Shown: positions 1 through 62,469 of the stretch, in pieces
Numbering within the stretch: position 1 is the first letter of the stretch
Layout of the letters: each line of letters begins with the position of its first letter
Assembly (NCBI GenBank): GCA_911728435.2
Contig: OU452216.1
Coordinates: 9,560,342 to 9,624,341, forward strand
Source: Apoderus coryli
Lineage: Eukaryota > Arthropoda > Insecta > Coleoptera > Attelabidae
Direction of reading: 5' to 3'
DNA: 64,000 nucleotides
Notes under the pieces: generated by a model
Told to the model about the DNA's origin: nothing
Database searches by the model: none
Seen by the model: the letters and a program-made list of their open reading frames with translations, nothing else
Made by a program: the position numbers and the translations under genes

Positions 1-3000
1 AAGTTCCCTTCACGTAAGTGAGAAACAATTAGTGTAAACCTTCGCGCTGTGTTCACTCTCCAATATTTTGTTCCAGATGTTGTTCCTATTCTGACATCAA
101 CTGTAATTGAGTGCCATAGAGCTGGATTGAGATTTGCAGCCTTCAATTATGCTACGATGCTGATGAATCCGGAGTATAGGAAACAGATCGATCCGAAATA
201 CGCAAAGAAAATTGAGGCAGTTGTGAGAAAACCTCCAAAGAGTACTTCGAAAGATGGTGAGGCTGGTAGTGATTCACCTGAAGATCTAACTCCTTGTCCT
301 TATTGTGAGAAGTTGTTGCCTGAGAGTGAGGTTTCATGCGGAGGATGTAAGAATAATCTACCGTTTTGTATTGTGACGGTAAGTAAACTACTATTGTTTA
401 GGTAATTTACTGTTTTTGCTTTTGCAGCTTGCCATCATCTTAGAAATCTTGGAAAAATGTGCTCAATTTTAAATTAAACAAATTCCAGCAGCAAATTAAT
501 TTTGTTGTTGACTTTCTTTAATTTTTCCCTGCTTACCTCGACTTTACCACGGTTTTTAGAAACTGGCGTACATCGCTGGGGTAATTCTGAACTGGTTCTA
601 GTTTTCTATGCTGCGGTTCTGAAGCAGAGGTCACTATAGAGAGGTAATAGATGCGGCAATAACATACTCAAAGCTCACGACCCATGAACGCCCCCCAAAA
701 TTCCACTGCAGCCTCAAAGTAGCCTTAAGTGTGTCCCCGTGCAGTCCTCCACAAAACCGTCGCTAGCAGGAAATTCCACACCGACCCAACAATGGGAGAG
801 GTCCCTATAGAGAGGTAATAGATGCGGCCATAACATACTCAAAGCTCACGACCTATGAAGGGCCCAAAAATTCCACTGCAGCCTCAAAGTAGCCTTAAGT
901 GTGTCCCCGTGCAGTCCTCCACAAAACCGTCGCTAGCAGGCAATTCCACACCGACCCAACAATGGGAGAGGTCCCTATAGAAAGGTAATAGATGCGGCAA
1001 TAACATACTCAAAGCTCACGACCCATGAACGCCCCCAAAAATTCCACTGCAGCCTCAAAGTAGCCTTAAGTGTGTCCCCGTGCAGTCTTCCACAAAACAG
1101 TCGCTAGCAGGCAATTCCATTACCGAGCCAACTATGGGAGAGGTCCCTATAGAGAGGTAATAGATGCGGCCATAACATACTCAAAGCTCACGACCTATGA
1201 ACGCCCCCAAAAATTCCACTGCAGCCTCAAAGTAGCCTTAAGTGTGTCCCCGTGCAGTCCTCCACAAAACCGTCGCTAGCAGGCAATTCCACACCAACCC
1301 AACAATGGGAGAGGTCCCTATAGAGAGGTAATAGATGCGGCCATAACATACTCAAAGCTCACGACCTATGAACGCCCCCAAAAATTCCACTGCAGCCTCA
1401 CAGTAGCCTTAAGTGTGTCCCCGTGCAGTCCTCCACAAAACCGTCGCTAGCAGGCAATTCCACACCGACCCAACAATGGGAGAGGTCCCTATAGAGAGGT
1501 AATAGATGCGGCCATAACATACTCAAAGCTCACGACCTATGAACGCCCCCAAAAATTCCACTGCAGCCTCACAGTAGCCTTAAGTGTGTCCCTGTGCAGT
1601 CCTTCACAAAACCGTCGCTAGCAGGCAATTCCATTACCGAGCCAACTATGGGGGAGGTCACTATAGAGAGGTAATAGATGCAGCAACAACATACTAAAAT
1701 CCCACGACCCATGTGCGCCCCAAAAAAAATCCACTGCAGCCTCAAAGTAGCGTTAAGTGTGGCCCCGTGTAGTCCTCCACAAAACCGTCGCTAGCAGGCA
1801 ATTCGACACCGACCCAACTATGGGAGAAGTCCCTATAGAGAGGTAATAGATGCAGCCATAACATACTCAAAGCTCACGACCTATGAACGCCCCCAAAAAT
1901 TCCACTGCAGCCTCACAGTAGCCTTAAGTGTGTCCCTGTGCAGTCCTTCACAAAACCGTCGCTAGCAGGCAATTCCATTACCGAGCCAACTATGGGGGAG
2001 GTCACTATAGAAAGGTAATAGATGAAGCAACAACATACTCAAAGCTCACGACCCATGAACTCCCCCAAAAATTTCACTGCGGCCTCAAAGTAGCCTTAAG
2101 TGTGTCCCTGTGCAGTCCTTCACAAAACCTTCGCTAGCAGACAATTCCACAGTGACCCAGCTATGAGGGAGGTCACTATAGATAGGTAATAGATGCAGCA
2201 ACAACATACTAAAAGCCCACGACCCAGGTGTGCCCCCAAAAATTCCACTGCAGCATCAAAGTAGCTCGTGCAGTCCTCCACAAAACCTTCGCTAGCAGGA
2301 AATTCCACACCGATCCAGCTTTGGGGGAGGTCACTATAGAGAGGTAATAGATGCAGCAAGTTACAGAATACCCCCTTCTGGCGCGTTTTGTACCCACGTA
2401 GTTACCATATTATGCCCTTTGTACCGCTATATTTAAATTATGCACGTTGCTCTCTGCTTCTCTACGTTTTAAGTTTTGTACGGTATACCCCACGAGGATG
2501 TCAAGCTCGTGACCTTAAAAAGCAGCATTTTTGGCGTTTTTGGACCTTAGCAATTCCCCATGTATAGATTTTTCTAAACTTAAACCGTTACCGTATGAAA
2601 TTGTAAGCACGAAATTTTTTATTGTTGTGTAAATTTCTTTATTTATTTTTAGGGTCGCCATATTGTTGTAAATGATCTAACAGCTTGCCCAGAATGTGAT
2701 TTCCCAGCTCAATTGACTGAATTTCTTGAGTAAGTTTCAAAAAGAGTATTGTATTTGTATTTTATCGAAAAATATTTTTACAAACCACAATTGCAAGTAT
2801 ATAATTTTCCTACACTAGTGAAAATTATCTTGTGTTAACACAACATAAACCTTAAGGTTTATGTTGTCCAATAAGTAAAATCGTCTCTCGTTTCACCTAA
2901 AATGACTCAATTAACTCATATTGAATCGAAATATGCAAGACTTCGTCTTTGAAGCCTGTAACTATAGTATATTAAGTATAAAGGGCGGTAAAGCATTCGT

Positions 3001-3819
3001 TGCAGCCCGCCGCTGTATAGACGCACGAGTGAGCGAAGCGAGCGAGGGCAGCTATACAGCGAAGGGCTGCAGCGGCTTTACCGCCAGTGGTGCTTACAAC
3101 TGTTTTTCGCCTGCCTCTTCATACTACAATATTAAACAAAAAGAACTTTATTTTAATAATTAATTATTACTGTTATGAACTGACAGTTTTTGACAGTAAT
3201 TAATGGGAGTATTTTTTGACGTACATAATAATAGGCGTTATCCTTTGACAAACTCAGATCAGATAAACTTATGTGACAGGCTCACATGTCAGTGTTGAGT
3301 ATTTTAAATGTAGAGAGAAACTGTCAAATTATTATCTGAGCGTGTACGCTATAGAAATTTGATTTTAGAATCTTAGGTATATTTAGGTACTACAATACTA
3401 ATCAAAAAGTGATTACTAATTAATAATGGAATGGCAGACGACTACCTAAGTGAACTTTCTCAATTAATTGTCAACTTATCCTCTAGATGGAATGCACATT
3501 AAGTTAAGTGAGTGAAAACTACTGATGTTTACGTTATTATTGGAAATCTTACAGCAGCGCCATCTATGAAAAAAAATTAAAATGAGCGGGCGCTAACTGG
3601 TCATTTACCGCCCGCATATGCGGGCGGTAAAACGCTGTTTAAGTGCAGGCAGGCGAAAAAATTAATTACCTCATTTATATGCCTCAAATGTAACAAGTCT
3701 TGATGTTTTACAGGGTTTTACAAGATGAGGATTCCTCTTGTCCAATGTGTTCTGAGAAAGTGGATGCTAGACGATTGGAGAAAATTGAGAATTTTAAGAA
3801 TTACCTAAATATTGAATAG
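1..3819 (+). CDS. WDR19: WDR19/IFT144, C-terminal exons (5' part outside window)
   Basis: This is the 3' end of the gene for WDR19 (IFT144; Oseg6 in Drosophila), an IFT-A subunit that works in retrograde transport in cilia. Four coding exons are visible: 1-13 (partial), 77-378, 2653-2729 and 3714-3819, joined by GT-AG introns with consistent phases; they give 165 residues and a TAG stop. The joined protein begins [20 protein letters not shown], matching my memory of the conserved end of WDR19. The tail has the family's zinc-binding cysteine pairs in order: CPYC, CGGC, CPECD and CPMCSEK. The first 13 bases end in a good donor (GTAAGTG), and the 63-base intron behind it ends TTCCAG. The third intron in view holds foldback DNA and the second holds a satellite array. 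The WD40 and TPR parts lie left of the window. The family call is secure; the exon limits come from splice consensus and similarity. Confidence 0.93.
624..2362. repeat. ~171-bp tandem satellite array inside a WDR19 intron
   Basis: About eleven head-to-tail units run through this stretch. The landmark GGTCACTATAG or GGTCCCTATAG recurs near 631, 802, 972, 1144, 1315, 1486, 1659, 1830, 2002, 2173 and 2331, giving steps of 170-173 bases and a last step of 158. Each unit contains GAGGTAATAGATG, CCACTGCAGCCTCAAAGTAG and CGCTAGCAGGCAATTCCA. Small open frames here repeat the same peptide and are by-products of the periodicity, not genes. Confidence 0.95.
2983..3660. mobile_element. Foldback-rich element in a WDR19 intron
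   Basis: Two strong dyads sit 520 bases apart. At 2984-3085 the arms GGCGGTAAAGC/GCTTTACCGCC, GCAGCCC/GGGCTGC and GCTGTATAG/CTATACAGC fold around a ~30-base loop rich in GAGCGA. At 3604-3631 there is a perfect 28-base palindrome centred on GCATATGC and bounded by TTTACCGCC/GGCGGTAAA. TTTTTCGCCTGCCT at 3103-3116 is the reverse complement of 3647-3660. The shared ACCGCC ends suggest one non-autonomous foldback element of about 0.65 kb; its exact limits and class are not clear. Confidence 0.5.
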
Positions 3820-4063: not shown

Positions 4064-5622
4064 GACTCAGCTATGGGGGAGGTTACTAGAGAGAGGTAAT
4101 AGATGCAGCAACAACATACTAAAAGACCACGACCCATGTGTGCCCCAAAAAATTCCACTGCAGCCTCAAAGTAGCCTTAAGTGTGGCCCCGTGCAGGCCT
4201 CCACAAAACCACCGCTATCAGGCAATTCCACACCGACCCAGCTATGGGGGAGGTCAATATAGAGAGGTAGTAGATGCGACAATAACATACTCAAAGCTCA
4301 CGACCCATGAACTCCCCCAATAATGCCACTGCAGCCTCAAAGTAGCCTTAAGTGTGTCCCCGTGCAGTGCTCCACTAAACCGTCGCTAGCAGGCAATTCC
4401 ATTACCGAGCCAACTATGGGGGAGGTCACTATAGACAGGTAATAGATGCAGCAACAACATACTAAAACCCCACGACCCATGTGCGCCCCAAGAAATTCCA
4501 CTGCAGTCTCAAAGTAGCCTTAAGTGTGGCTCCGTGCAGTCCTCCACTAGCAGGCAATTCCACACCGATCCAGCTATGGAAGAGATCACTATAGAAAGGT
4601 AATAGATGCAGCAACAACATACTAAAACCCCACGACCCATGTGCGCCCCAAGAAATTCCTCTGCAGTCTCAAAGTAGCCTTAAGTGTGGTTCCGTGCATT
4701 CCTCCACAAAACCGTCGCTAGCAGGCAATTCCATTACAGAGCCAACTATGGGGGAGGTCACTATAGACAGGTAATAGATGCAGCAACAACATACTAAAAG
4801 CCCAGGACCCATGAACGTCCTTAAAAATTCCACTGCAGCCTCAAAGTAGCCTTAAGTGTGTCCCCGTGCAGTCCTCCACAAAACCGTCGCTAGCAGGCAA
4901 TTCCACACCGACCCAGGTATTTGTAGGTCAGTATAGAGAGGTAATAGATTTGACAATAACATACTCGAAGCTCACGACCCATGGACACCCCCAAAAATTC
5001 CACTGCAGCCTCAAAGTAGCCTTAAGTGTGTCCCCGTGCAGTCCTCCACAAACCCTTCGCTAGCAGGCACTTCCACACCGACCCGGCTATAGGGCAGGTC
5101 ACTATAGAGAGGTAATAGATGCAGCAACAACATACTAAAAGCCCAGGACCCATGAACGTCCTTAAAAATTCCACTGCAGCCTCAAAGTACCCTTAAGTGT
5201 GTCCCCGTGCAGTCCTCCACAAAACCGTCGCTAGCAGGCAATTGCACACCGACCCAGGTATTTGTAGGTCAGTATAGAGAGGTAATAGATTTGACAATAA
5301 CATACTCGAAGCTCACGACCCATGGACACCCCCAAAAATTCCACTGCAGCCTCAAAGTAGCCTTAAGTGTCCCCGTGCAGTTCTCCACAAACCTTCGCCA
5401 GCAGGCAATTCCACACAGACCCAGCTATGGGGGAGGTCACTATAGAGAGGTAATAGATGCGGCAATAACATACTCAAATCTCACGACACATGAACGCCAC
5501 CAAAAATTCCACTGCAGCCTAAAAGTAGCCTTAAGTTCGGCCGCATGCAGTCCTCCACAAAACCGTCGCTAGCAGGCAATTCCACACCGACCCAGTTATG
5601 GGGGACGTTACTATAGAGAGGT
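4064..5622. repeat. Second array of the WDR19-intron satellite
   Basis: This is the same ~171-bp repeat as the array at 624-2362, in the same orientation, starting about 245 bases after the WDR19 stop. Ten landmarks occur near 4083, 4254, 4426, 4586, 4758, 4928, 5099, 5269, 5438 and 5608. The two-unit block 4758-5098 is nearly repeated at 5099-5438, including the variant GTATTTGTAGGTCAGTATAG, so a dimeric higher-order repeat has begun to form. The array stops abruptly at the inverted-repeat element beginning at 5624. Confidence 0.95.
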
Positions 5623-54720: not shown

Positions 54721-55209
54721 CATCAACAAACAATATTAGCCTAAATACTAAATATTATCCACACTTTATATGTTTGTTCGCAATATAAAAAGCGAGATGA
54801 GATAAATCATGGAAAGCATTATGCAAATTTCCATAGCAACCCCGTGCCATAGTCGTTATATTCTTCTGTCTTCCCCAAAACAAAAAAAAACGATATGGAT
54901 TTTTCAGCAAAATGCGCAAGAATTTTCTTTTTAACATGGTATATTCACTGTTCCTCCCTATATATATCAGTTTTTGTTCTGTCTTCCACTTTCTATAAAT
55001 GGTGATACGTTTAACATAGGCGTAACAACCACCACTTTTAGTAAAGAGCTGATTTATTGCAGTTTATAGAGTGCTCTAAAGTTATATCAATAATTAATTA
55101 CCGCCCCATCCCTCTATGTACGTACAGGGTATCCACAATGTAACAGAATTAAAATAGTACATTTTTGAAAGAAAAGCAGAGATAAGTCAGTTTTAATTTA
55201 TGTTTCACA

Positions 55210-55640
55210 ATTTTGTTGCTCGATTTCTCTAAGGCTTTTGATACTATTAATCATAATCTGCTCCTATCAAAGCTAAAATTTTATGGATTCTGTGATCATT
55301 CATTGCAACTTGTCAATTGTTACTTGAGCGGAAGATCCCAAAGAGTTCAAGTTGGTGATCGGGTCTCAACTTCTGAGAATATTGTTTCTGGTGTGCCTCA
55401 GGGCTCTGTGCTTGGTCCCTTGTTTTTCATTATATATACAACGGACATTCTGAAGGCTGTTAGGCATGGTAAAATTGCTGCTTACGCTGACGACATTCAG
55501 ATTATCTATAACATCGATTTGATCTTTTATTTACAATGCTATTAGCCTTTACAACAGTCTACCTGATGAATTTAAACTGATTAATATTAATAAATTTAAA
55601 TATAAATATAAAACACATCTATTTCAATTGCAGTAGTGGC
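55210..55640 (+). pseudogene. LINE RT fragment with internal deletion
   Basis: [40 protein letters not shown] and IAAYADDIQIIYNID include both catalytic positions. Immediately after, the frame passes to a far C-terminal reading (LYNSLPDEFKLININKFKYK), so the thumb is deleted. Confidence 0.85.
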
Positions 55641-58055: not shown

Positions 58056-58493
58056 AGTGATAATTTTCCGATGACTCATTCTAAATTAACAGACGTTCAA
58101 AAAGAAACTTCTGGTGATGCACATCTGATGAAATTAAAAAATATTATAGAAAATGGATTTCCTAAAAATAAAAATAATTTAGACAATGAATTTAAAATTT
58201 ATTAGAAATCAAAGATGAGTTAAATACACATAAAGCTTTGATATATAAAGATCATTGTCTAGATATAACTCAAAGGAGCCTATGATTTCTCAGGATGTAC
58301 CGTTGGGAGCTTGGAGGAAGGTTGGATCTGATTTATTTTTCTTTAATAATAAAGTTTTCCTTCTAGTAGTTGATTACTATTCCAAATTTGTTGAAATTTC
58401 AGAACTATCGTCTCAAAGCAGTATGCAAGTAATTAATTCTTTAAAAAGAATATTTTCTGTCCATGGAATTGTTGAAACTCTTATAACTGATAA

Positions 58494-60906
58494 CACAGGC
58501 CAACACACATTTTGGTGCCTGCGATTTTTTAACTGTTCCTGAGTAATTTTTGGATGCAGAATGTAAAAAGGTTCTCAGATTTTGTCTATCAGATCTAGTT
58601 TTTGAGATTTTTTAAAAAATTGTGTATATAATTTACGTTATAACTGTTATAATATATAATATTACTATTGACAGTTAAAAAAAACAAAGACACATGGATT
58701 TAAGTATTTATTGCAAAAACTTAATTTACATAATTACATTAGTCACTAATCACATAAAAATTTTCTTTTATACGATTTTCTAGAATCGAGTTTACTAGGG
58801 CAGTCTCGCTGAAGGCTCCAGCAGTAGTCCGCCATCATGTGGCTATCCCATCGTCCTTGATAACGATCTTCCATAGTTTTAATATCCTGGTGGAATCTTT
58901 CCCCCTGTTCTTCACTACAATCACCTAAGTTTTCTGGAAAACGATCTAGGTGGCTGTGGAGGTAGTGAACTTTTATACTCATGTTACAGCCGAGAATATT
59001 AAAATTTGAAAGCATAGTTTCCACTAATTCTACGTAATTGTCTGCTTTATGATTGCCAAGAAAATTTTGTACTACTTGAACAAATGAACTCCAAGCGTTA
59101 GATTCAGTCTCGTTCATTGATGTGGTGAATTGTGGATCTTTAACAAGTTGCCTTATTTGAGGACCATCAAATATACCAGCTTTTAGTTTTTCCGTGCTAA
59201 TGCCAGGAAATTTACGTGACAAATACCCAAAACAATTTCCATCTCGATTTAAGGCCTTCACAAATTGCTTCATTAGGCCTAGCTTGATATGCAAGGGCGG
59301 AAGTAAGATTTTTTCTCTTGAAACCAAAGGTTCGTTGATCACGCTTTGTATTCCTTGAATCATGACATCTCTTGAAGGCCAATTTTTGTTAACCCAGTGC
59401 TCATTTTTAGCTCTGCTGTCCCAAAGGCACAAAAAACAAGGATATTTTGTATAACCACTCTGCTGTCCAAGGAGGAAGTTAATCATTTTTAAATCAACAC
59501 AAATTGACCACTGATGTTCTTCGTATTTAATTTTTCTCAAAACTAATGCTATTGTTTCATATTCTTCCTTCATGGTAGTAGAATGACCAATAGGAATTGA
59601 GCCATATTTGTTACCGTTATGTAAAAGAACACATTTTAAACTACGTTTTGAACTGTCAATAAAAAGGCGCCAATCATCTGGAGTGTATTCAGGCAAACCC
59701 ATTTTTTCTAAGAGCCCTTTTATATTGTTACAGAATACCAAGTCATTTTCCTGAGTGAAAAAAGGCAGCAGATCCTTATCTCTTTTACGATAAAATGTAA
59801 TATTAGTACCTCGACAAAGTAGATTTTTTTCTTTTAATCTGGATGCAAGTAATTCAGCGGATTCCTTTGAGAGATTCAGGTCTCTTATAAGATCGTTTAG
59901 TTCTTCTTGATTGAAACACTGCGGAGTTGCTAAATCTGCTTCAAAATCGCTGTCGTTTTCTGATTGAATTCTTTTAACTTCGTCAGACGGTGATGTTTCT
60001 GTATCATCTTCTGTCAGTTTGGGTAGACTGCTGAATGATGGAACGGGTATTTCTTCCGAATGCACTACAGGCCTTCTTGCAGAATCTAGATCAGGATATG
60101 TCCATTTGTGTCTATTGTTTCTATTTATGCCTTTAATATTAACGAGACAAAAATAGCAGTCGTCATGATGGTTCCGCGGTTCTCTCCAAACCATTGGTAC
60201 ACCAAACTTTAGGCACTTCCTCTTTCCAGTTGTCCACTGTCGCAAATGTTCAACACATGTTTTACATATGAAATGTGGGGCCCAAGATTTATCTTGATCT
60301 CCTAAATGAACGCCAAAATAGGCAAGATAAGCTCTTTTCACAAAGTCAGAAATCCTTTTTCTGCTCTCTTTCAAAGTGTATTCACCACACACATAACAAA
60401 AAACATCGGGATGATTTACACAGGTACGTCTGCTTGTGGATGCCATTGTTTCAGTTTAGTGTCTTGATACTACAAAACGACCAAAATTTACACAAAATGA
60501 TAGCACAACTTTACTTGGGAAAACTCAGTAATATACTAAATCAAGTACAGCCAAGCAGGTATAGAAGGATCGGGTCATAGGCAATTACAGGTATAAAAGT
60601 AAGTAAGAGCATTGTATTGAGTAGTTCCTAGTATAGGAACATTGGGTCAGGGACAATTACAGGTATCCATTTGGCTAATTAGATTCTGGGAAATTCCTAT
60701 TTTGACGATTAAGTACATATTTATCTCTTTATTTGTTGTCCTTTATCAGAAAAAAATATATCATTTAACCTGTAACGTGTATCTCAAAAACTAGAGCTGA
60801 TAGAAAAAATCTGTTGGCATTTTTGGAATCAGCACATTAAAAACATCTAAAATCAGATGTTAGATTTCTGGCACCAAATTTTTTTTTTCATTTTGTTGGC
60901 CTGTGT
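58494..60906. mobile_element. 2413-bp inverted-repeat element of unrecognised superfamily, TAA target duplication
   Basis: Both ends begin CACAGGCCAACA (left 58494-58505; right as reverse complement 60895-60906) and are directly flanked by TAA (58491-58493 and 60907-60909). Inside the ends TTTGGTGCC is also shared, and about 90 bases in the block CTATCAG.TCTAGTTTTTGAG occurs on both sides in inverted orientation (about 58587-58606 and 60782-60802), so the terminal repeats are long and imperfect. The only ORF is the 566-residue one on the minus strand. A 75-80-bp direct repeat (CAATTACAGGTAT) lies between the ORF start and the right end. Confidence 0.87.
58746..60446 (-). CDS. 566-residue candidate transposase of the 58.5-60.9 kb element
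   Basis: This is an intact, intronless minus-strand ORF with AATAAA just downstream (58712-58707). Visible parts are an N-terminal zinc module with C17-x2-C20 and C61-x2-C64 (ZAD-like spacing), a further pair C97-x2-C100, an acidic linker (about 140-175), and a conserved-looking core. The core has FIDSSKRSLK (D264), WSICVDLKMINFLLGQQ (D318), YPCFLCLWDS (C337, C340), LPPLHIKLGLMKQFVK (H385), LHSHLDRFPEN (about 496-500) and SEEQGERFHQDI (E516). D264, D318 and E516 with an intervening Cys/His-rich insertion would fit an RNase H-fold transposase, but this is inference. I recall many similar unnamed multi-copy proteins in insects, Hydra and other animals, with no assigned function. The lack of frameshifts suggests recent activity. 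Confidence 0.85.
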   Translation of the reverse strand: MASTSRRTCVNHPDVFCYVCGEYTLKESRKRISDFVKRAYLAYFGVHLGDQDKSWAPHFICKTCVEHLRQWTTGKRKCLKFGVPMVWREPRNHHDDCYFCLVNIKGINRNNRHKWTYPDLDSARRPVVHSEEIPVPSFSSLPKLTEDDTETSPSDEVKRIQSENDSDFEADLATPQCFNQEELNDLIRDLNLSKESAELLASRLKEKNLLCRGTNITFYRKRDKDLLPFFTQENDLVFCNNIKGLLEKMGLPEYTPDDWRLFIDSSKRSLKCVLLHNGNKYGSIPIGHSTTMKEEYETIALVLRKIKYEEHQWSICVDLKMINFLLGQQSGYTKYPCFLCLWDSRAKNEHWVNKNWPSRDVMIQGIQSVINEPLVSREKILLPPLHIKLGLMKQFVKALNRDGNCFGYLSRKFPGISTEKLKAGIFDGPQIRQLVKDPQFTTSMNETESNAWSSFVQVVQNFLGNHKADNYVELVETMLSNFNILGCNMSIKVHYLHSHLDRFPENLGDCSEEQGERFHQDIKTMEDRYQGRWDSHMMADYCWSLQRDCPSKLDSRKSYKRKFLCD

Positions 60907-61412
60907 AATCAATCTTGTTTTACATCAGACGAATTTAAAAACTTTTCAAAGAATTGGCAATTTAGTCACATTACTTCGAGTCCGCATTATCCTCAAAGCA
61001 ATGGACAAGTAGAAAGATATGTACAAACTGTTAAGAATCTTTTAAAAAAATGCGAACTTTCTAAAACAGATTTTCATTTAGCATTGTTAGATTTAAGAAA
61101 TACTCCCATTTCTTCCAACATATCAAGTCCAGCACAGTTAATTTTTAGTCGAAGATTACGAACAACCATTCCGATAAAAGAAAATTTATTGAAACCTAAA
61201 GTCCAACCTGTTTCCAAGACTCGAAACAATTTAGAAAAGAGAAAAAAATCTCAAAAATTCTATTACGATAAAGGAACCTGGAGATTTTGTTAATATTACG
61301 CTAGCCCAGAAAAACAACAGGTACCCCAAGTTACCAGAGTTGGTAGAACAATCAGGCAACCTATGAGGTATAGTCCTTAGTTATATTTTAATTTTCATAG
61401 ATAGGTGTTTAA

Positions 61413-62469
61413 TGCCCGTTTGCACCACATACCGTTTAAGTCACGATTTGTTCTAAGAGGCGCTTAGCATCTATTTTTTATTGCACCGCGTTAAAACGTC
61501 ACTTTAAATTTGCCTAAGTGTCACTTAAGTGAAGTGTTGAAGAATATTTTAAGTCACGATTTGTTCTAAGAGTCGCTTAGCATCTATTTTTTATTGCACC
61601 ACGTTAAAACGTCACTTTAAATTTGCCTAAGTGTTCCTTAAGTTAAGACTCGAAAATTCTCTTCTTAAATGGAATTCTAACCTCAATATTGCTTTTATAT
61701 TTTTCATTATTGGGTTGTTTACATTGTGTGGCGATTAAAAATATGGGATTATTGGATGATCTTGATGTTTTCGAATTAATTGAACATGGATTTCCAAGGA
61801 GGGTGTATGAAAGGCCGAATTATTTTTAAGATATGGAAAGTTTTTTTCAAAGATTTCGACTGACGAAGCCTACGATTCGGCCTATCCTAGACCAAATTGA
61901 GCATTTTTACTAGAATTTGATGAGATATGACAGCTTTCATTAGAAGATAAAGACCAGAAAGGGTCTTTGTGCTTAACATACCTATTACTATTATATAGAG
62001 GTATAAATTATTGAGCTAGGGTATCAACAACAATAAATTAAAACCATAACAACTATTCGCAACTATACTTATAAATTATTATTTTATATGTAGCAATAAA
62101 AATTATTGCTGTTATAAACGAGTTTGTTTTTGCTTTTTATCTAGTAACAGATTCAGTTGTTTATACTATTCAGAGCACTAGCTTATGGCGCCAAAATATT
62201 CAAACAGCAAAAACAAACACACGGAAACACGACCCAAGGGCGAACATTCCCATTGGCTCGGTATAAAAGGAAATTAACGTATGCTTACCTACTGCCTGAC
62301 CAAAAACTCTTCTTCATTGTCGGCTACCTTAAATTTGCTATGTTGACAAATTTACCCGATACTTAACTAAGTGCTATCTACTCATGATTCGGTGCAATCA
62401 ATTCCGTTCTTAAAATTTAGGTGACCCTTAACTATTCTCTACTTAAACTGTATGTGGTGCCAACGGGCA
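61413..62469 (+). mobile_element. PIF/Harbinger remnant with TAA target sites
   Basis: The ends TGCCCGTTTGCACCACATAC and (reverse complement) TGCCCGTTGGCACCACATAC are flanked by TAA (61410-61412 and 62470-62472), the usual PIF/Harbinger target. Inside, a reading from 61743 gives MGLLDDLDVFELIEHGFPRR then VYERPNYF, the N-terminus of a HARBI1-like transposase, followed by FKDFD-like and RPILDQIEHFY traces. Two copies of a ~117-base subterminal repeat (AAGTCACGATTTGTTCTAAG) lie at 61438-61640. Confidence 0.85.

Follow-up and report, generated by a model that had tools for sequence, protein, structure and literature searches.

The 64,000-nucleotide stretch of DNA from the beetle Apoderus coryli analyzed in this work (assembly GCA_911728435.2, contig OU452216.1, positions 9,560,342 to 9,624,341; hereafter the window, whose numbering is used below) harbors at positions 58494-60905 a whole Chapaev3-type DNA transposon of 2412 bp, the open reading frame (ORF) of which lies on the minus strand. 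Our results suggest, with a probability that we would put at about 94%, that it is an autonomous cut-and-paste element of the Chapaev3 group, recently amplified in this genome and possibly still active.

Element ends, genomic copies and target sites

The element is bounded by the 12-bp terminal inverted repeat CACAGGCCAACA, which is found at 58494-58505 on the plus strand (left end, 3' of the ORF) and, as its exact complement, at 60894-60905 on the minus strand (right end, 5' of the ORF). These are the only two exact matches of CACAGGCCAACA in the window; if up to two mismatches are allowed, four sites are retrieved against 3.1 expected by chance, and the two that do not coincide with the element ends have two mismatches each. 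An inner part of the terminal repeats, TTTGGTGCC, is present at 58511-58519 (plus strand) and 60870-60878 (minus strand), followed further inside by a 33-bp subterminal inverted repeat, matched at 31 of its 33 positions (left arm 58576-58608, plus strand; right arm 60781-60813, minus strand), whose putative role is the binding of the transposase. As read from the sequence, a TAA target site duplication flanks the element at 58491-58493 and 60906-60908, and the unoccupied paralogous sites of other copies, described below, hold the three base pairs once. The element embeds one long ORF only, a single exon encoding 566 amino acids and a stop (58746-60446, minus strand; ATG at 60446, stop at 58746-58748). 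The initial annotation of this DNA, made from the sequence alone, had already recognized the inverted ends, the 3-bp TAA duplication and the single 566-amino acid ORF, all of which are found again here; its right end (60906) was one base too far, and both TTTGGTGCC and the 33-bp subterminal repeat had been overlooked. The end sequence CACAGGCC was not met in a broad and loosely termed search of the literature, which cannot show its absence.

The search for further copies was carried out in the same genome, whose 129 contigs add up to 428 Mb, and yielded 77 scored matches out of 490 first-look candidates, a number that represents a lower bound. An open frame of 569 amino acids without stops is present in all 77 of them. 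Seventy were fetched together with their flanks (about 0.4-1.25 kb on each side), and the analysis of these loci revealed both exact 12-bp ends, 2411-2414 bp apart, and CAC...GTG termini in inverted repeats in 69 cases out of 70, the first bases of one end being missing in the remaining one (L025). Identical 3-bp TWA duplications border the element at 64 of the 69 loci possessing both ends (35 TAA and 29 TTA), and all 64 lie in the context ATWAT; in addition, a weaker and symmetric preference for A and T is visible six bases either side of the target centre (51/64 and 45/64).

When the 69 loci were compared both with all 70 loci and with the window, four pairs of occupied and unoccupied sites emerged. 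The unoccupied paralogue of the L013 insertion site falls in the window itself (2964-3430, minus strand), where the same repeat carries a single TAA and no transposon; that of L027 is embedded in locus L023 (around 4590), again with a single TAA; the L003 site has a single TTA, and the unoccupied partner of L015, found in L007 and more diverged, a single TAT. The initial annotation had interpreted the insert as a mobile DNA transposon and had suggested looking elsewhere for the same ends, duplications and empty sites; the outcome of this search, run within the same genome, is in agreement with that interpretation. We also observed that L003 and L027 are inserted in opposite orientations at one and the same point of a dispersed repeat, a possible insertion hot spot.

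Since the copies differ from each other by only 0.10% on average (0.37% at most), the burst that generated them is recent. The majority sequence is matched exactly by 18 of the 69 copies, with a mean departure of 1.49 differences per copy. Mutation rates in insects are near 3e-9 per site and generation, and based on this value the age of the burst would be of the order of 0.2 million generations. Three residues of the window protein (153, 368 and 554) are not those of copy L005, a copy in full agreement with the majority among the first 29. The element is probably autonomous, and it is possible that it is presently active in this genome.

The transposase and its relationship with Chapaev3, Transib and RAG1

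The passages of the literature on which we draw attribute to Chapaev elements 3-4-bp duplications and invariable CAC/GTG termini, and report that in all the Chapaev3 elements examined there the duplication is TWA, lying between A and T (PMC4079192). Chapaev3, which received its name in Repbase Reports 2008 (as cited in PMC4411706), has been placed with Transib and RAG1 in one superfamily (PMC4411706), and EnSpm, Mirage, Chapaev and Transib have been united as CMCT on the basis of the C(2)C and H(3-4)H motifs (PMC12730594).

The element described here resembles the Chapaev3 elements Garfield, Merrow and Conan, as described in PMC4079192, in its CAC/GTG termini, in the TWA target between A and T, in its length (about 2.3-2.4 kb), in a transposase of about 560 amino acids with C(2)C, LH and H(4)H motifs, in the existence of unoccupied paralogous sites and in its scattered animal hosts. 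Garfield_BM, for example, is 2289 bp long and encodes a 556-amino acid transposase with the same three motifs (PMC4079192); in the window protein, of 566 amino acids and also provided with an N-terminal zinc region, these correspond to C337/C340, L385-H386 and H494/H499. The host is different from those of Garfield, Merrow and Conan, and the comparison is one of descriptions, not of sequence identity. The ORF consists of one exon, as in most Chapaev3 elements, whereas Garfield and Merrow have two, and the copies diverge by about 0.1%, compared with an identity of 80-90% for the lizard Conan miniature inverted-repeat transposable elements (MITEs) and of more than 91% for the silkworm Garfield MITEs (PMC4079192). 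Since every published Chapaev3 hallmark that we tested was found in it, the element is not undescribed as a kind. On this point the initial annotation has to be revised, as it had considered the transposon undescribed and its protein as matching no transposase superfamily; Chapaev3, within Chapaev/CMC (or CMCT with Transib and RAG1), is already named and described (PMC4079192) and fits the data.

The core of the protein, from residue 178 to residue 553 (58788-59915, minus strand), is predicted to be a RAG1/Transib-like DDE domain, with D264, D318 and E516 as the putative catalytic triad and C337/C340 plus H494/H499 as zinc-type residues. The model thus suggests a RAG1-like RNase H core with a Cys/His insertion, the same architecture that had been anticipated for D264, D318 and E516 from the sequence. 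A total of 2283 homologues were retrieved at expectation (E) values up to 1e-3, in several animal hosts, in accordance with the earlier statement that similar proteins are widespread and unnamed; their names and Pfam status were taken from the best 120 per search, and all four patterns (triad plus the three motifs) are present in 114 of the 120 listed homologues, the other six missing one pattern each, which in five of them is the one from H(4)H to E. Searches of the Protein Data Bank (PDB) by sequence gave no meaningful relative (a polyketide synthase-related protein, an alpha-glucosidase and a FYVE domain, with E of 0.036 or worse), and a viral structure library gave no match at E <= 0.001.

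The likeness to Transib and RAG1 (PMC4411706; PDB 6pqx, 6cik) would concern the predicted core fold, the DDE triad and the C(2)C...H(4)H residues, and extends to an N-terminal zinc region, since the region called Chapa has been reported in RAG1, Chapaev and Chapaev3 (PMC4411706). Differences exist as well. Transib duplicates 5 bp of target (PMC4411706), against the 3 bp observed here, so that the element does not qualify as Transib proper. As for the RAG1 system, the element contains no RAG2-like second frame and its protein no Pfam RING match, and the two aspartates are separated by 54 residues, against 108 in RAG1.

Some points weigh against the explanation of the insert as an autonomous, recently amplified Chapaev3 element. 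Membership is judged from the hallmarks and not from a direct alignment or a tree with Repbase transposases. The confidence of the model is middling (mean predicted local distance difference test, pLDDT, of 79.6; predicted template modelling score, pTM, of 0.58), and ten-residue pLDDT blocks, which range from 80 to 96 across residues 221-500, fall to 72 in the block of E516 (511-520); the Foldseek template modelling (TM) scores to RAG1 are low, namely 0.39 and 0.35. Lastly, five of the 69 duplications are unmatched (L006, L019, L029, L032 and L062).

The five copies with mismatched duplications otherwise have 0-6 differences from the majority, and in L006, L019 and L062 the mismatch is confined to the central W. 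Point mutation at the rate of the element predicts 0.26 mismatched positions versus the five observed (P about 7e-6, each locus counted once). An exchange of flanks between copies and the carrying over of donor bases at excision would both account for such mismatches, and assembly error may be another source. In two of the 70 loci the end of a further copy lies nearby, at about 1.0 kb in L006 (at 4-15) and 0.84 kb in L029 (at 4296-4698). These neighbours are known from their ends, their interiors not having been fetched whole; their outer ends lie 2412 bp on and are accompanied by matched duplications, a situation possibly fitting local insertion. The idea that the mismatches stem from composites of two adjacent copies was dropped for L006 and L029 because the neighbours carry matched duplications of their own.

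Other explanations must also be considered. The reading originally given, that of a new superfamily convergent with Chapaev3 only in its ends and duplication, is in agreement with Pfam, where the window protein has no transposase match and none of the 120 listed homologues carries a precomputed domain; however, the published descriptions of Chapaev3 are matched not only by the ends and the A-TWA-T target but also by the protein size, by the three motifs and by the RAG1/Transib fold predicted for the protein, and we regard this reading as very unlikely. CAC ends and a 3-bp duplication might also be ascribed to a CACTA/EnSpm element, but the strict A-TWA-T target, the shortness of the element, its one transposase of about 560 amino acids and the N-terminal zinc region fit Chapaev3, and the Pfam listing up to E 10 contains no EnSpm transposase match; we regard such an origin as very unlikely. 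PIF/Harbinger elements make TWA duplications too, like the 3-bp one observed here; they are endowed with a distinct DDE domain, a second Myb-like protein and different ends, whereas here CAC ends, C(2)C...H(4)H residues and a RAG1/Transib-like model are found, with no second long ORF and no Harbinger-type DDE match in that same Pfam listing, and an element of this type is extremely improbable. A domesticated host gene or a segmental duplication, which the intactness of the long frame could recall, has a negligible probability in the face of 69 scattered copies with identical precise ends, of the matched short duplication at 64 of 69 sites and of the existence of sites without the insert.

As a Chapaev3 transposon, whose ends, duplication, target preference, intact frames and copy number (the latter as a lower bound) are observed, the element might move as follows. 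At the terminal and subterminal repeats the 566-amino acid transposase would act in dimeric form, with the help of its N-terminal zinc domain, and the RAG1/Transib-like RNase H centre formed by D264, D318 and E516 would cut at the CAC/GTG ends. Joining of the 3' ends would follow, 3 bp apart on the two strands of an A-TWA-T target, and the repair of the resulting gaps would leave TAA or TTA duplications. Tests of a Chapaev3 transposase could well draw on this genome, where no fewer than 77 intact and nearly identical copies are present. Such an enzyme is a compact relative of RAG1, the antibody gene-assembling recombinase, on whose plan this transposase is predicted to be built.

The N-terminal domain and the distribution of homologues

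The first 143 residues (60018-60446, minus strand) form an N-terminal zinc-type domain with C17, C20, C61 and C64, and H93, C97, C100 and H129, for which a ZAD-like model was obtained. The Cys/His residues are conserved. The domain lies where Chapaev3 reportedly carries Chapa, a likeness of position. The top structural matches of the model, with modest scores, are ZAD chains of the insect ZAD-ZNF transcription factors (PDB 7po9, 1pzw), with which it shares an N-terminal zinc domain based on cysteine pairs; in contrast to those proteins, the domain is joined here to a transposase and followed by a second zinc-type motif instead of C2H2 fingers. The most common weak Pfam match is zf-AD (29 of 69 members, best E 1.7e-4). 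A Pfam-level assignment of the window protein to ZAD was rejected, its zf-AD score being 17.4-17.5 bits against a curated cut-off of 28. The ZAD-like zinc pairs mentioned in the initial annotation find weak support in these data. A parallel for a ZAD derived from a transposase is offered by THAP, common to the P element transposase and to host proteins. We can speculate, as a possibility slightly less likely than not, that ZAD originated as part of a RAG1-clan transposase and was then co-opted by hosts (or that the passage went the other way), and that the RAG1 N-terminus has the same ancestry. Were it confirmed, such a connection would be relevant to how a major family of insect transcription factors arose.

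Concerning the distribution of the homologues, those named among the best 120 of the first search belong to the firefly Pyrocoelia, Callosobruchus, Onthophagus, Hydra and the worm lizard Rhineura, and those among the best 120 of the second to the bat Saccopteryx, the frog Ranitomeya and the snake Erythrolamprus. In the FastTree phylogeny (35 sequences, i.e., the window protein and 34 of 154 homologues; midpoint rooted, branch supports not read) the worm lizard and Hydra sequences come together, with that of the beetle Onthophagus beside them, and bat, frog and snake are placed elsewhere. This topology fits the horizontal transfer reported for the Chapaev3 group (PMC4079192), of which it is no test. 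When viral contigs were searched with a few peptide patterns, one search returned no match and another 23 stretches, none encoding a relative; the same holds for the 32 stretches matched by a few peptide patterns in bacterial and archaeal genomes. One homologue (P0133) is filed under a bacterial metagenome-assembled genome (Pseudomonadota), and our guess is that it represents animal contamination. With the assignment to Chapaev3, a large set of unnamed animal proteins would gain a name and a mechanism.

The insertion site and the neighbouring repeats

The transposon interrupts a gypsy-type integrase frame, the 5' part of which (58249-58493, plus strand) corresponds to positions 24-78 of Pfam rve (E 8.9e-5) and the 3' part (60906-61293, plus strand), weakly, to positions 74-102 (E 0.17), both matches scoring below the Pfam curated cut-off. 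According to the arithmetic on the ORF positions, the two TAA copies share the same codon phase in the two flanking integrase frames. The insertion within a gypsy integrase, as originally proposed, is in agreement with both flanks.

Beside the gypsy remnant, a block around GTCACGATTTGTTCTAAGAG(G/T)CGCTTAGCATC is present twice, at about 61440 and 61550 (window 61420-61660, by eye). The window as a whole seems to be rich in repeats and, again by eye, many frames resembling the reverse transcriptases of non-long-terminal-repeat (non-LTR) retrotransposons (YADD, SGVPQGS) are visible at 16257-46212 and 55186-55545.
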